A stretch of DNA of 64,000 bases. Origin: Candidatus Eremiobacteraceae bacterium. GTDB taxonomy: Bacteria > Vulcanimicrobiota > Vulcanimicrobiia > Eremiobacterales > Eremiobacteraceae. The stretch is taken from NCBI GenBank assembly GCA_035314825.1, contig DATFYX010000044.1, positions 62,001-126,000 on the forward strand, given 5' to 3'. The position numbers were made by a program, and so were the translations under genes. Below are positions 5,024 through 11,534 of this stretch, in pieces; the stretch's first letter is position 1; each line of letters begins with the position of its first letter. Below the pieces are notes generated by a model, which ran no database searches, had not been told where the DNA came from, and saw only the letters and a list, made by a program, of their open reading frames with translations.

Positions 5024-5487
5024 TCTTCGATCGGACCTTCCACGTCGCTGCGCCCGCAGGCGCGGTCTGGGATATCATCAAGGACGTTCCGCGCGTGCTG
5101 CCCCACATTCCGGGCGCGCGTCTCCTCGAGAGCATGAGCAATGGGGCTCACAGCGCCCGCATCACCATGCATGCGGGACCGATGCAGGGCACGTACGATG
5201 TCGCGATCGCGGTGCAGTCGGTGGACGATCAGGCGCGCAGCGCGGTCGTGCGTATCACGGCCGACGATACCACCGGTCGGGGCGGCGTGAACGCCGTCGT
5301 GACGGCCGGAGTGCAACCGGCGCCAGGCGGCTCGCGAATCGATATACACGCGGACATCGAGGGCAGCGGCGCAGCGGCGGCGGCAGCGCTCGACCAGCAT
5401 CTGACGCAAGGCGCGACCCCCGGCGCCGCCGACGAGTTCGTCGCGAACCTGGAGCGCACGCTTCGGGGCGGCAGGCCCTTCGGCTAG
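5020..5487 (+). CDS. SRPBCC/CoxG-like lipid- or cofactor-binding protein
   Basis: The 155-residue protein starts at GTG 5020, overlapping the TGA of the cyclopropane synthase gene. It opens with FDRTFHVAAPAGAVWDIIKD and continues with VLPHIPGARLLE, the pattern of the SRPBCC (START-like) fold and of CoxG/CO-dehydrogenase subunit G relatives. These proteins form a hydrophobic pocket; CoxG anchors or matures CO dehydrogenase, while others carry lipids. Coupling to a lipid-modifying gene favours lipid binding or transfer here. The C-terminal 50 residues are Ala/Gly-rich. Its last four bases overlap the end of the convergent LuxR gene. Confidence 0.65.
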   Translation: MIFDRTFHVAAPAGAVWDIIKDVPRVLPHIPGARLLESMSNGAHSARITMHAGPMQGTYDVAIAVQSVDDQARSAVVRITADDTTGRGGVNAVVTAGVQPAPGGSRIDIHADIEGSGAAAAAALDQHLTQGATPGAADEFVANLERTLRGGRPFG

Positions 5488-8291
5488 CCCTTGAGCTTGG
5501 CGATGAGCTCCGCGCGAGTGGCTGCGCTCATCTTCGTCAACACCGACGACACGTGACTCTCCACGGTGCGCTCGCTCAGGACGAGCTGCTCGGCGATCGC
5601 CTTGTTCGTCTTGCCCTGCACGAGCAGATCGCAGATCTCGCGCTCGCGCGGCGTCAGCTCGCCTTTTGTTCGCCCGCGCCGGTTCACCGGATTCAACTGC
5701 GCGTTTAGCCGTTGCACATCGCGCATCGCGCCGGCGCGCGCGTAGAGCTCGAGCGCCTGCTCCGGGTTTCCGGCGATCTCCAGCGCTCGCGCTTCGTGAT
5801 AGGGCCACGCCATGGTGCGGAAAAGCTCGGCGGTCTCGAGCGCACGCGCGGACGCGGTCGCGGCGTCGCCGGCTCTGTTCGCCGCGTAGGCATCGAAGAA
5901 CGCGAGGTTGGCGCGCGTGGCGCGCGGCATCTCAGGTGCTCGCGCTGCGCCCTGCAGCAGCGCGCGAGCGCGCGGCAAATCCTCGATCGCGCCGTACGCC
6001 GCCGCCGCGATGCACAGCTCATCCGCATCGCCGAACCCAGGCGGCGCACCGATGTTCTCGAGCGCGCCGATGGCGTCGCGCAACAGCGAGGCAGCCTGGT
6101 CGGTCCTGCCGTGCGCCGCATCGAGCTCGGCGAACGCGGCGGTTGAACCGATCATCCTGGAGTTGCCGGACGAAAGCGCAAAGCTCACCAGCTCGCGGCG
6201 CGCGCACCGCGTCACCAGGGCATCGTCGTCAAGCATGAGACCGACCCTGATGCCGGCGCTTGCGATGAACATCTGGAAGCCGGGCGTCTCGACGTTCGCC
6301 GCAAGCGCCTCTTTAAGCAGAGCGCGTGCACCGGCCAGGTCGCCGCTGACCCGCTTGGCGTGCGCCGAAGCGACTCGGATCCAGATCGCCGTCAGGCCGC
6401 CGACGCCCTTGTGGCGGATGATCTCGGACGCCGCGTCGAATCCCGCAGCCGCTTGCGCGCTTTCGCCCGCTTGCAGCATCGAAATCCCGAAGCTTCCCCA
6501 GCATCGGACTGCGCTGCGGAAATCGCCGGTTTCAGCCGCTAGTGCAGCGGCGGCGCGGGTGTCCTCGAGCGCTCGATCCACCTCGCCTGCGCCGGCGTCG
6601 CTGACCGCGCGCAGCACCAAGAAGTTGATCCGCGTCTCCGGCGCGCGTGCGCCGGTCGCGGCGTCGGCAAGCGCCATGTGCTGCGCAAGGCGCTGCGGAT
6701 CCCAACGGAATTCGGTGAAGAGGCGCATCATCTGCACGTGCGCGTCGAAGTACGCCGGGCTTGCCGGATCATCTCCGACCAGCTCGAGCGCGTGCTGTGT
6801 AAGCGCGAAGGACTCGTCGGTGTGCCCGTACGTGCCATGCATCCGGGCAAGCTCGAGACACGTCCGCGCGGCGCTGACCCGGTCACCGCTAGCCTCGTAG
6901 AAAGAGAGCGCTTCACCGGCGGCTCGTTTGGCCTGCTCCTCGGCGCCGCACTGGTGCAGCGCGTACGCGAGTTTGAGGTTCAGCGCGGCGCGATGCGCGT
7001 CGTCGCCGCTCGTCGACTCGATCGCTCGCTCCAATGCGGTGGCCGCGTCGCGGTACGCGAAGACCTTAAGCGCCGCATCCGCCGCCAACTCATTGTACCG
7101 CGCGGCGCGCGCCCGCTCGTGCGCTTGCCACCAATGATAGGCGAGCTCCGCCGTATTCTCGTCGTGCGGGTGCCCCTCCAGCGTCGTGGCGATCTTCGTG
7201 TGGATCTGCCGGGCCTCGCTCGCGAGCAGTTCTTCATAGATCGCCTGGCGCGTGAGCTCGTGCCTGAAGGCGAAGAAGACGACGCCGTTGCTCTCTTCGG
7301 CGATCAGCGACAGTTCGACCGCGTGCTTGAGCGCCGCGGTCACGTCCTCTAAAGGAAGGCCGACGATCTCTGCGAGCAGTGCCGCTTGGAAGCGCCGGCC
7401 GATCACCGCCGCGTGTGAGATGATCTTCTTCTCCACGACGGTCAGGGCCGCGAAATGCTCGAGCACCGCCTCGCTCAGGGTCGCAGGCAAGCTCGGCGCT
7501 TCGAGCCGGCCGCTTTCCAGCACCGACTTGAGCAGCTCTTCTGCGAACAGCGCATTGCCCTCTGCGCGCGAGCAGATGGCGCCGATCGTCGCGGCTGGAA
7601 GCTGAGCCCGGCCCTCAAGCACGTGGAACACGAGTTCGTGCATCTCGGACGCGCTCAGCGCAGGCAGCTCAATGCGCCGCACCGCGGACTGGCGCGCAAG
7701 CTTGGCGAGCATCGGGCGCAAGGCTTGCGCGCGCTTGAGCTCGTCGTTGCGATAGGTGGCAACGACGAGCAGGCGCGCATCGCCGATATTCGCTGCGAGG
7801 TGCTGCAGCAGTTCAAACGACGCGCTGTCAGCCCAGTGGATGTCTTCGATCACCACTACCGTGGGTCGCGCTGCGCCGAAATCGCGCAACGCTTCGACGA
7901 TCGCGTTGAATTGGCGCAGTTTGTCGGTCGCCGGTTCAGCCGGTACAGCCGTGGCGGCGAGCTCCGGCAGCAAATGCGAAAGGGTCGCTCGGACAGACGG
8001 TGATGCTTTGAGGACCGCCGGGTCGGCGTCGTTAAGGGTTGCGAGCGCAGCGAGCCATGGCGCGAACGGCGATTGGACGTATTCGAGGCATTGGCCGACC
8101 GCGTACCGCGTTTCGGCGGATGCGAGCGCCGCGCAGAACTCGAAGACGAGGCGGCTCTTACCCGTCCCTGCCTCGCCGCCCAGCAAGACCACGCTGCCGG
8201 CGCCGGACTTCGCCGATTCCTGAAGCCGTCGCAGCAGCGCCAACTGCGGATCTCTGCCGACGAGTCTGTGCGTTTGTGCGGAGTCCGCCAT
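5484..8291 (-). CDS. Large AAA-ATPase/TPR/LuxR-type transcriptional regulator (LAL family)
   Basis: The 935-residue protein has an N-terminal AAA16/NACHT-like ATPase with Walker A GGEAGTGKS (38-46) and Walker B VVVIEDIHWAD (145-155). A long alpha-helical TPR-like middle follows (about 370-860), and a C-terminal LuxR helix-turn-helix, LTPREREICDLLVQGKTNKA and RTVESHVSSVL (about 872-930). This is the LAL architecture, often tied to secondary-metabolite clusters. The gene starts 31 bases after the stop of the borosin-type methyltransferase and shares its direction, so it probably belongs to the same transcript and may control that cluster. The inducer is unknown. No strong Shine-Dalgarno is visible. 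Confidence 0.88.
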   Translation of the reverse strand: MADSAQTHRLVGRDPQLALLRRLQESAKSGAGSVVLLGGEAGTGKSRLVFEFCAALASAETRYAVGQCLEYVQSPFAPWLAALATLNDADPAVLKASPSVRATLSHLLPELAATAVPAEPATDKLRQFNAIVEALRDFGAARPTVVVIEDIHWADSASFELLQHLAANIGDARLLVVATYRNDELKRAQALRPMLAKLARQSAVRRIELPALSASEMHELVFHVLEGRAQLPAATIGAICSRAEGNALFAEELLKSVLESGRLEAPSLPATLSEAVLEHFAALTVVEKKIISHAAVIGRRFQAALLAEIVGLPLEDVTAALKHAVELSLIAEESNGVVFFAFRHELTRQAIYEELLASEARQIHTKIATTLEGHPHDENTAELAYHWWQAHERARAARYNELAADAALKVFAYRDAATALERAIESTSGDDAHRAALNLKLAYALHQCGAEEQAKRAAGEALSFYEASGDRVSAARTCLELARMHGTYGHTDESFALTQHALELVGDDPASPAYFDAHVQMMRLFTEFRWDPQRLAQHMALADAATGARAPETRINFLVLRAVSDAGAGEVDRALEDTRAAAALAAETGDFRSAVRCWGSFGISMLQAGESAQAAAGFDAASEIIRHKGVGGLTAIWIRVASAHAKRVSGDLAGARALLKEALAANVETPGFQMFIASAGIRVGLMLDDDALVTRCARRELVSFALSSGNSRMIGSTAAFAELDAAHGRTDQAASLLRDAIGALENIGAPPGFGDADELCIAAAAYGAIEDLPRARALLQGAARAPEMPRATRANLAFFDAYAANRAGDAATASARALETAELFRTMAWPYHEARALEIAGNPEQALELYARAGAMRDVQRLNAQLNPVNRRGRTKGELTPREREICDLLVQGKTNKAIAEQLVLSERTVESHVSSVLTKMSAATRAELIAKLKG

Positions 8292-8322: not shown

Positions 8323-9069
8323 CTAGCCTCGCTCTTCCCCGACCGGCGACGGCTCTTTAGGCGGGATGTACAGCGTCGATCCGGTGGTCACGTCAACATC
8401 TGCGAGCGCGCCGACGGTCGTGCGTTGGATGAGCGGGCCGAACACCGAGTACTGCGATGCCTGGTAGACGATGGCCTGATGGTTTTCGCCGTAATACTCG
8501 ACGAGATAGCCTGCGAGCTTGGCGACGCCTTCGCGTCCGTACGTGATCTTGAAGCTAGGATCGCCGGTCACGGCCGGTTGCAACAACACCAGCGGGCTAT
8601 CCACGCTAAACGCTCGCCTTCTGAACACCAGATCGGATGCGTCGAAGATCTGCAACCCGCACGCGGCGGGATCGAGGTCAAGATCGGCGAGCAAACAATC
8701 CACCGAGGAGACCGCCGGCTGCATCGTCGCGGTGTGGCCATCGGCGCGAGCCTGGGCGATCGCGCGATGCATCGGATAGGCGAAGACGCCGGGGTGGCCG
8801 TAGGCGACCACGCATACTTTTGCGCCTGTGCGGACGCTCGCCATGATGCGCGAGACCATCTCTTCATACGTGTCGATGCGCGGCTTTTCGACGTCGTAGA
8901 GCGTGTGCAACGACTCGGCGCTGGCGTTTAGCTCAAGCACGCTGCCAGCGGCGACCGGATCGCCGACCAAGAAAAATACCTTATCGGCGCGTTCGATATG
9001 CCAGCGCGCTGCCGGCGTCAGGTCGCGTCCGGCGTCGATGCCCGCCCCGACAATGGTCAGGTCCGGCAA
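8323..9069 (-). CDS. Split-borosin peptide alpha-N-methyltransferase (OphMA/SonM type)
   Basis: The protein has the tetrapyrrole-methylase fold but borosin-type motifs. These are the N-terminal DLTIVGAGI (3-11), DKVFFLVGDP (29-38), SLHTLYDVEKPRIDTYEEM (53-71), YGHPGVFA (90-97), a block ending DCLLADLDLDP, and C-terminal STLYIPPKE. Tyr58, Arg64 and Tyr68 occupy the places of the Tyr/Arg/Tyr set known for backbone N-methylation in OphMA. Fungal OphMA fuses this domain to its substrate; bacterial split borosins such as SonM act on a separate precursor, and such a peptide is encoded directly upstream. The reading frame continues upstream without an ATG until 9234. I chose TTG 9069, which opens exactly at the domain, 17 bases after the precursor stop; GTG 9129 is the alternative. 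Confidence 0.8.
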   Translation of the reverse strand: MPDLTIVGAGIDAGRDLTPAARWHIERADKVFFLVGDPVAAGSVLELNASAESLHTLYDVEKPRIDTYEEMVSRIMASVRTGAKVCVVAYGHPGVFAYPMHRAIAQARADGHTATMQPAVSSVDCLLADLDLDPAACGLQIFDASDLVFRRRAFSVDSPLVLLQPAVTGDPSFKITYGREGVAKLAGYLVEYYGENHQAIVYQASQYSVFGPLIQRTTVGALADVDVTTGSTLYIPPKEPSPVGEERG

Positions 9070-9086
9070 TGGCGGTGTGGACCAGG

Positions 9087-9365
9087 CTATGAGTGCGGGT
9101 CTCCGCCACCGCCGGTACCACCGGGCCACACGTTGGGCCGCGGCGGTCCGTATGAGAAGGCTTGCATCGGCGTCACCCCAAGAGCCTTGTATTCCTCGGC
9201 GACCAGAGCCTCGATATCTTTGATCGAGCCCCACAAGAACGCTCTGATCTGCTTTTCCTTGAGACCGTGATGTTCGAATACTTTGAGGACTTGCTCATAG
9301 ACGTCTTTCGAGAAGTCCTTATGCTTGGTCTTCTCGAGAAACTTGACGAACGGGCCTTCTGGCAC
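9087..9365 (-). CDS. Candidate split-borosin precursor peptide with helical recognition domain and Gly/Pro-rich core
   Basis: The 92-residue protein starts at GTG 9365 with AAAGGAG six bases upstream. Residues 1-66 are predicted helical and charged; VLKVFEHHGLKEKQIRAFL and DIEALVAEEYKALGV fit the LigA-like borosin-binding domain of SonA-type precursors and the helical clasp of OphMA. Residues 67-92 switch to a low-complexity, Pro/Gly-rich tail (FSYGPPRPNVWPGGTGGGGD then PHS), the expected place of a core peptide. The gene lies immediately before the N-methyltransferase and is driven by its own promoter (9399-9427). Which residues are methylated, and whether the tail is released, cannot be read from sequence. 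A free-standing LigA-like protein of other function is the alternative. Confidence 0.72.
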   Translation of the reverse strand: MPEGPFVKFLEKTKHKDFSKDVYEQVLKVFEHHGLKEKQIRAFLWGSIKDIEALVAEEYKALGVTPMQAFSYGPPRPNVWPGGTGGGGDPHS

Positions 9366-9398
9366 GACGAACTCCTTTGCAGAACAAGAACCGACTCA

Positions 9399-9427
9399 TT
9401 TGTAGGTTCTCTCGAGAGAGCGGACAA
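9399..9427 (-). promoter_or_regulatory. Promoter of the borosin-type operon with a 12-bp palindrome in the spacer
   Basis: On the minus strand TTGTCC (9422-9427) and TACAAA (9399-9404) are separated by exactly 17 bases. The spacer contains the perfect palindrome TCTCTCGAGAGA (9408-9419), a likely operator. Transcription would start about 30 bases before the GTG of the precursor gene, leaving room for its AAAGGAG site. Confidence 0.5.
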
Positions 9428-9503
9428 GCGGCGTTCACCGACGTTCGTAAATGCCCTGCAATCGGAATGAGCGCTCTTTCCACGCAGCGAAACGGCGGCC
9501 GTG

Positions 9504-11534
9504 ATGAAGACACTCTTACTCGCCGTCTTGTCCGCGTTCGCGTTCGCCGGCGCGCCTCAAGCCGCGTCGGCTTCGAACGCTTCGAAGGCTTTGGATCTCG
9601 AGACCCTGCGCACGTACGTGGAAATACCCAGCCTCGCCATTTCTCCGGACGGCAGGCGCGTGGCGGCCGTCGTGCAGCGCCAGGACTTTACCACCAATCG
9701 CTACGTCGAGCGCATCGAGGTCATCGATTGCACGACGCACACGCGCACGCCGGTGACACCGGCATCATACGGCGTGACAGATCCGGCATGGTCCCCCAAC
9801 GGTGCCGCGATCGCGTACATCGCCGACGCGAATGACGCGCCGCAGATCTTCATCGTCTCCGTACGCGGCGGATCCGTCCGCCAGCTGACCCATCTGCCAC
9901 GTGGCGTCGACTCGTTCGCGTGGCGCCCTGACGGTTCGGCCATCGCGTACGCGACGCCGGATGCTGCGCCAGACGCAAAGTCCATCGCGGCCGGACTCGA
10001 TGCATTCGAGGTCGGCGATCAAGACTACCTGAGCACCGCCAAGCCGACGCCCTCGCATCTGTGGCTGCAAGCGATCGCCGGCGGCGCGCCGCGCCGTCTC
10101 ACCAGCGGCAGCTGGAGCCTACCCAAGGGCGAGCTCATCTACCCGCTGCCCGAGGTCGCTCCGATGCCGTTCTTCGCGTGGTCGCCCGACGGCGCTTCGA
10201 TCGTGTTCGCGCGCATGGACAATGCGTACAATTCCGATGCGGTCGGCACCGTGACCGACGTGCTGGACGTCGCCATCGGCTCGATCCGCAAGCTCACGGA
10301 CCACAAGCGCCTCGAGGCCGGCGCCATCTACTCGCCGGACGGCACTCGCATCGCGTACGCCTACGCGCGCGCCGATAATGCGCTAGCGCAGACGATGATG
10401 ATGATCGCGCCCGCGAGCGGCGGTGATGGTATCGCGGCGACGCAGACGCTCGACATCGACGCGATGGGCGCGCGCTGGCTGAGCGGGCATCGGCTGGTCG
10501 TCAACGCGTTTCAAGGGACCCGTTCGCGGCTGTTCATCGTCGGCGAGCACGGCGACTCGTCGCGCATCGATACGCAGGCGGTCGATCCGGTGCCCGGCAC
10601 GCTCGATGCCACTGCGGCAGGGCAGATCGCCTTCGCCGGTTCGGAACCGCAGCGCGCGACCGAGGTCTATTACATGGCTTCGACATTCGCCCCGCCGGTG
10701 CGGCTCACCGACTACAACGCGGCCATCGATGCGCGCGCGCAGAGCAAAGTCCAGAACATCGCGTGGACCGGACCCGACGGGTTTTCCGAAAGCGGCGTGC
10801 TTTTCTACCCGCCCTCGTACGTCGCCGGCAAGAAATACCCGCTGGTCTTGCAGATCCACGGCGGACCCACCGAATCGTCGATCGCGAGTTGGCGCGACAC
10901 CGATTGGCCGGGCCTGCCGCAGTACATCGCCGCGCACGGCTACCTCGTCTTCTCGCCCAACTATCGCGGCAGCGACGGCCAGGGCAACGCGTACCAGATC
11001 GCGATCTTCAACGATGCCGGCGACGGCCCGGGGCGCGACGTCATGGCCGGCATCGAGGCCGTCAAGAAGCTGGGCATCGTGGACGAGACGCGCATCGCGG
11101 TGTCCGGCTGGTCGTACGGCGGTTACATGACCGAGTGGCTCATCACGCACTACGCGGTGTGGAAGGCCGCGATGGCCGGCGCCGCGCCCGCGGACGCGTT
11201 CGTCGACTATGCGACATCGGACTACAACGTGCTGGGCCGCTTCTATTTCGGCGGTTCGCCGTGGGATTCGGCCGCACTGCTCCAAGCGTATCGCGACCAG
11301 TCGCCGCTCAGCTACGTCGCCAAAGTCACGGCGCCGACGCTGTTGCTGCACGATTCCGGCGACGTACGCGTACCGGTGATCCACTCATATGAGTTCTATC
11401 ACGGGCTCAAGGACAGCCACCTGCCGGTGACGTTCGTCGTTTATCCGGTGAGCGGGCACTATCCGAACGACCCGGTGCGCTCCGAGGACATCTACCGGCG
11501 CTGGGCGGCCTGGATGGACCGCTATCTGAAGTGA
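9504..11534 (+). CDS. Secreted S9-family (prolyl oligopeptidase/dipeptidyl peptidase-like) serine peptidase
   Basis: The 676-residue protein has a Sec signal peptide (about 1-24). A seven-bladed TolB/DPP-like beta-propeller follows, with repeated ISPDG, WSPNG, WRPDG and YSPDG motifs, and then an alpha/beta-hydrolase domain from about residue 415. The catalytic triad is Ser537 in GWSYGGY, Asp620 in DSGDVRVP and His652 in SGHYPN. Such enzymes cleave short peptides, often after proline or with X-Ala/X-Pro N-termini, in the periplasm. The gene is divergent from the borosin-type precursor, 138 bases away. An S9 enzyme (OphP) is linked to omphalotin, but S9 genes are common, so a link here is only a hypothesis. 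GTG 9501 is an alternative start. Confidence 0.9.
   Translation: MKTLLLAVLSAFAFAGAPQAASASNASKALDLETLRTYVEIPSLAISPDGRRVAAVVQRQDFTTNRYVERIEVIDCTTHTRTPVTPASYGVTDPAWSPNGAAIAYIADANDAPQIFIVSVRGGSVRQLTHLPRGVDSFAWRPDGSAIAYATPDAAPDAKSIAAGLDAFEVGDQDYLSTAKPTPSHLWLQAIAGGAPRRLTSGSWSLPKGELIYPLPEVAPMPFFAWSPDGASIVFARMDNAYNSDAVGTVTDVLDVAIGSIRKLTDHKRLEAGAIYSPDGTRIAYAYARADNALAQTMMMIAPASGGDGIAATQTLDIDAMGARWLSGHRLVVNAFQGTRSRLFIVGEHGDSSRIDTQAVDPVPGTLDATAAGQIAFAGSEPQRATEVYYMASTFAPPVRLTDYNAAIDARAQSKVQNIAWTGPDGFSESGVLFYPPSYVAGKKYPLVLQIHGGPTESSIASWRDTDWPGLPQYIAAHGYLVFSPNYRGSDGQGNAYQIAIFNDAGDGPGRDVMAGIEAVKKLGIVDETRIAVSGWSYGGYMTEWLITHYAVWKAAMAGAAPADAFVDYATSDYNVLGRFYFGGSPWDSAALLQAYRDQSPLSYVAKVTAPTLLLHDSGDVRVPVIHSYEFYHGLKDSHLPVTFVVYPVSGHYPNDPVRSEDIYRRWAAWMDRYLK

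Follow-up and report, generated by a model that had tools for sequence, protein, structure and literature searches.

A probable split borosin operon with a LAL-type regulator gene in a Candidatus Eremiobacteraceae bacterium

Three consecutive genes on the minus strand of the window (the whole stretch of 64,000 nucleotides that was analysed) very probably form a split borosin RiPP operon, consisting of a precursor, a peptide alpha-N-methyltransferase and a LAL regulator. An earlier note, made from the sequence alone, had proposed a split borosin pathway, and this proposal stands: the enzyme groups with SonM and OphM, a profile of the precursor family reaches SonA, and the two genes are adjacent. 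The reading builds on the family membership of both proteins, the catalytic residues, the co-occurrence of the pair and a conserved three-gene unit, all established computationally. The features concerned are listed here in order of position.

5484..8291, minus strand: LAL-type regulator, 935 aa, gene 3 of the operon; AAA_16 domain, long middle region, C-terminal LuxR/GerE HTH
8323..9069, minus strand: borosin-type peptide alpha-N-methyltransferase, 248 aa; assigned by dbOphM and SonM matches, PF00590, the Tyr/Arg/Tyr set and the tree
9087..9365, minus strand: RiPP precursor, 92 aa; putative core ...TPMQAFSYGPPRPNVWPGG... within a Gly/Pro-rich tail
9366..9500, no strand: intergenic region between the operon and the divergent S9 peptidase gene; presumed promoter site, by position only
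9501..11534, plus strand: secreted S9 prolyl-oligopeptidase-family peptidase, divergent; PF00326 at 1e-39; outside the cluster

Read from 9365 to 5484, the precursor, methyltransferase and LAL genes are likely to be carried on one transcript, as the gaps between them are only about 17 nt (precursor/methyltransferase) and about 31 nt (methyltransferase/LAL); judging from position, the promoter is presumed to lie within 9366–9500. The precursor starts with GTG, preceded by a Shine-Dalgarno sequence (AGGAG) 6 nt upstream, and the LAL gene with ATG and a G-rich box. The methyltransferase frame is open from 9234, and its start is most likely the TTG at 9069 (MPDLTIVGAGI...), directly past the precursor stop, which puts the Tyr/Arg/Tyr set exactly at 58/64/68. 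Given this start, the residue numbers in the earlier note are right; all motifs quoted there were found, and its span of 8323–9365 correctly includes both genes. The operon encodes neither a transporter nor a protease, and its only tailoring enzyme is the methyltransferase.

The methyltransferase

By its sequence, the enzyme is a member of the borosin alpha-N-methyltransferase family. A single-sequence search of the PDB (phmmer) matched dbOphM (4.3e-44, far beyond chance), OphA (1e-42), SonM (4.5e-37) and MroMA, and gave no other match below 0.01. The protein falls within Pfam family PF00590 (2.4e-15), and its best NCBIfam match is YabN (6.7e-10), well under the cut-off for YabN. A profile built from 13 relatives reached SonM at 2.7e-85 and OphMA at about 1e-75, compared with 5e-5 for the cobalt-precorrin-4 methylase CbiF. 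On this profile the borosin-type enzymes of the class score 290–405 bits, and other PF00590 proteins from the window and sister genomes score at most 9 bits, including those that are MazG-linked, which were recognised by reading MazG-like sequence after the methylase domain. In an IQ-TREE phylogeny, 12 other tetrapyrrole methylases, some of them MazG-linked, are set apart at 100/100, and SonM, dbOphM and a fused Ruegeria protein sit among the enzymes of the class, with the deep inner branching unresolved. Profile and tree both place the enzyme on the SonM/OphM side, the opposite of the grouping with cobalamin-type or MazG-linked methylases that the earlier note had weighed against its own reading.

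Tyr58, Arg64 and Tyr68 are invariant across the 13 relatives and align with Tyr58, Arg67 and Tyr71 of SonM. SonM Tyr93 and Gln167 are likewise conserved, and the “bottom lock” Trp166 of SonM is replaced by Leu in the window enzyme and its whole family (SonM residue roles from PMC8429565).

The precursor and its tail

The precursor is composed of a leader (about residues 1–61) that is very probably a helical borosin-binding domain (BBD), and a disordered tail (62–92). Since single-sequence searches of the PDB gave no match, either for this precursor or for that of a relative (G113), the leader is assigned as a BBD from the family profile together with the predicted fold. The profile, made from the small ORFs upstream of the enzymes, reaches SonA in the PDB at 2e-8 and, more weakly, the clasp of OphMA (0.02) and LigA-fold proteins (0.1). 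Strong matches of the same profile to TALE proteins were rejected as an artefact of 15–18 repeats at about 5 bits each.

An AlphaFold2 model of moderate confidence (mean pLDDT 69.7, about 50 in the tail) predicts helices at residues 5–13, 20–33, 37–45 and 48–61, in keeping with the helical N-terminal domain and Gly/Pro-rich tail that had been described from the sequence. A Foldseek search of the model against 350,542 PDB chains returned 41 matches, and ranks 1–19 are all SonA chains. Taken one by one these matches are weak (E 0.8–3.9, target TM-scores up to 0.61), but their joint ranking among so many chains makes the predicted similarity look very specific.

A small ORF lies directly upstream of the enzyme in nearly every relative in which the upstream DNA is intact on the contig, and these ORFs have similar N-termini and variable tails. 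A sister species (G008) possesses two precursors, whose leaders are 57% identical over 79 residues, up to an LSGI motif; the alignment does not extend to their tail ends, a RiPP-like pattern. In this species a 621-aa ORF on the reverse strand lies between the two BBD precursors, and there is only one methyltransferase.

The tail of the window precursor is 44% Gly+Pro and 22% hydrophobic. With tail boundaries drawn by eye, this composition is a genus-level trait: the tails of the sister species are alike, and within the genus they are rich in Gly, Pro, Trp and Asn (32–44% Gly+Pro, 19–25% hydrophobic), while most tails from the rest of the class have a more hydrophobic composition, the majority with 5–13% Gly+Pro. 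The claim that the core differs from the hydrophobic cores of omphalotin is thus borne out, and the sister species share the difference. Characterised borosin cores are mainly hydrophobic (PMC11285071), a typical but non-defining feature that is absent from the window precursor, and because of this difference the activity of the enzyme on its Gly/Pro-rich tail is the least certain step of our reading.

Methylation of this core, its sites, its regulation and the role of the product are points that we infer. The helical N-terminal domain would dock on the methyltransferase dimer as SonA does on SonM, and the Pro/Gly-rich C-terminal tail would thread into the active site, where Tyr58, Arg64 and Tyr68 would stabilise a deprotonated backbone amide. 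The methyl group of SAM would pass to this amide, at one or several residues other than proline. As proline has no N-H, the methylation sites must be residues between the prolines; by an ungapped offset from the BBD, a rough estimate, positions corresponding to Leu63 and Ile65, the methylation sites of SonA, may fall at about residues 65–67. The LAL ATPase would probably act as a cluster-situated transcriptional regulator, and leader removal and export would be carried out by genes elsewhere in the genome.

Regulators and other neighbours

The LAL protein has AAA_16 (4.8e-29) and GerE (1.3e-17) domains. A LAL gene of about the same length (935 aa) lies on the same strand 3' of the enzyme in all five methyltransferase-bearing genomes of the family, with outer flanks that differ between genera. 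These five proteins score 751–837 bits against the window LAL, compared with 494 bits for the best homologue in the nine family genomes that have no enzyme. Orthologues are therefore present in 5/5 genomes with the enzyme and 0/9 without it (Fisher probability 1/2002, uncorrected for shared descent). This distribution supports the LAL gene as part of the borosin unit, which the earlier note had offered as a guess.

STAND-type regulators of at least three kinds and orientations flank 13 of 20 loci across the class. Divergent LALs adjoin the pair in G108 and at both loci of G061, cyclase-STAND proteins adjoin it in G086 and G088 as well as an orphan precursor in G075, and an HTH-STAND-type protein, identified by sequence reading and BLAST clustering, adjoins it in G111 and G104. 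Such genes are few per genome where they were counted: G000 has four long LAL frames containing a GerE domain, and G086, G088 and G075 have one to three long cyclase-domain STAND frames each. At five other loci (in G023, G027, G058, G059 and G064) the gene behind the pair encodes, in place of a STAND regulator, a protein that spans the membrane several times and matches PDZ weakly; this protein may be a sensor.

These neighbours, together with the lack of transporter, protease and further tailoring genes in the operon, would fit a methylated peptide that serves as a signal, either inside the cell or exchanged, and is detected by the neighbouring STAND/LAL regulator; the unit would then be a device for signalling or self-regulation and not an antibiotic-type pathway. 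We consider this somewhat unlikely, as cluster-situated LAL activators are equally standard in ordinary secondary-metabolite clusters and peptide binding by the STAND/LAL regulators is here a conjecture. In its class-wide form, in which split borosins are regulatory devices whose N-methylated peptide binds as a ligand to the STAND-type regulator encoded beside it (LAL, cyclase-STAND or HTH-STAND), the idea is quite unlikely. If it were true, backbone N-methylation would be part of a signalling system and LAL proteins would gain a defined peptide ligand.

For the split borosin operon that we favour, the S9 peptidase gene was also considered as a member and rejected. It is divergent, at 135 bp from the operon, and all three genus members keep it in synteny with the cluster; OphP, the omphalotin macrocyclase, is likewise a prolyl oligopeptidase (PMC12235650). 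That the neighbouring enzyme serves as maturation protease or macrocyclase, as OphP does for omphalotin, is nevertheless very unlikely. The synteny is limited to the genus; the cluster-bearing G002 has no S9 homologue at the cut-off and G010 has its homologues elsewhere, and homologues occur in 13 of 14 family genomes irrespective of the methyltransferase, including every one that is cluster-less. The peptidase also carries a signal-like segment at its N-terminus, in which it differs from a cytosolic macrocyclase.

Distribution, known systems and significance

Among 117 genomes of the class, the methyltransferase was found in 18, the BBD in 17 and both in 16, the BBD profile having been built from the upstream ORFs, so that their detection is partly by construction. 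A lack of co-occurrence between the small protein and the enzyme, which had been named as evidence against the pathway, is the opposite of what was seen. BBD matches lie directly upstream of the enzyme (fused to it in G076) and are nearly absent elsewhere, the exceptions being one orphan genome (G075) and the second precursor copy in G008; this near absence, unlike the upstream matches, is not a product of how the profile was built. The window genome has a single BBD protein, and in G010 the precursor is cut by the contig end.

Several relatives have other arrangements. The orphan BBD precursor of G075 (L099, 5497–5757) stands right after a cyclase-STAND-TPR protein, and no methyltransferase was found in that genome. 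G076 has a naturally fused version that resembles the type 0 architecture: a single open frame of about 340 aa encodes the BBD, a short linker and the enzyme, and the core seems to lie internally. Outside the class, five genomes from another family of the same phylum (G134–G138) have open frames of 543–639 aa, in which a borosin-like methyltransferase domain with the Tyr/Arg/Tyr set kept is followed by an apparent second, degenerate methylase domain. The fused borosin-like protein of Ruegeria atlantica, a 738-residue open frame, has an internal BBD-like segment after the methyltransferase part, and a long C-terminal extension.

The pair is conserved across genera, and it is dispensable, as most genomes of the class are without it. 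In G104, a single-contig genome, an in-frame internal deletion has left the first residues of the precursor joined to the latter half of the enzyme, and this locus is a decayed copy of the pathway. That the window pair is itself a decaying or inactive remnant, in which the enzyme is intact but drift has cost the tail its function as substrate, is highly improbable. All catalytic residues are present, and both the operon layout and the ribosome-binding site of the precursor are intact; the two other species of the genus, one of them with two precursors, retain the unit at this position, and their tails are similarly rich in Gly, Pro and Trp. An ordinary tetrapyrrole methylase (cobalamin, RsmI or MazG/YabN-like) beside an unrelated small protein, for which PF00590 membership and the YabN match far under cut-off could be cited, has next to no probability and is refuted computationally by the split in the tree, the profile scores, catalytic residues common only to borosin enzymes, and the close co-occurrence with the BBD protein.

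Enzyme and substrate are of a known kind, a split, type IV-like borosin. As in SonM/SonA of Shewanella oneidensis (type IV, PMC8429565), the genes are separate and adjacent, the leader is a BBD and the site is Tyr/Arg/Tyr; unlike that system, the window core is Gly/Pro/Trp-rich, whereas the methylated residues of SonA are Leu and Ile, a LAL is present as third gene, and SonM Trp166 corresponds to Leu. The fungal fused borosins OphMA and dbOphMA (type I) share a homologous methyltransferase domain and the same catalytic residues, but the window precursor is unfused and no OphP-type macrocyclase belongs to the cluster. Borosin types 0 to XI, with mainly hydrophobic cores, are described in the consulted parts of PMC11395268 and PMC11285071. 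Within that part of PMC11395268, the pair matches “class 3” (BBD and core together, enzyme separate), and for type 0 and other bacterial borosins neither an association with regulators nor a Gly/Pro-rich core is described. EreM of pythonamide (PMC9259500) also N-methylates the backbone of a bacterial RiPP, but it is an FkbM-family protein, from an unrelated enzyme family and with another leader type. Among the papers searched, to which the main mining papers for types V–X do not belong, none mentions both borosins and LuxR, and these loci may already be listed in print.

What sets this operon apart is the Gly/Pro-rich core and the regulator association. Backbone-methylating enzymes are in demand for making membrane-permeable peptide drugs, and those characterised act mainly on hydrophobic cores; natural pairs with Pro/Gly/Trp-rich cores would probe the proline tolerance of the enzyme. 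The recurrent link with STAND regulators hints at a biological role for bacterial borosins that can be tested.
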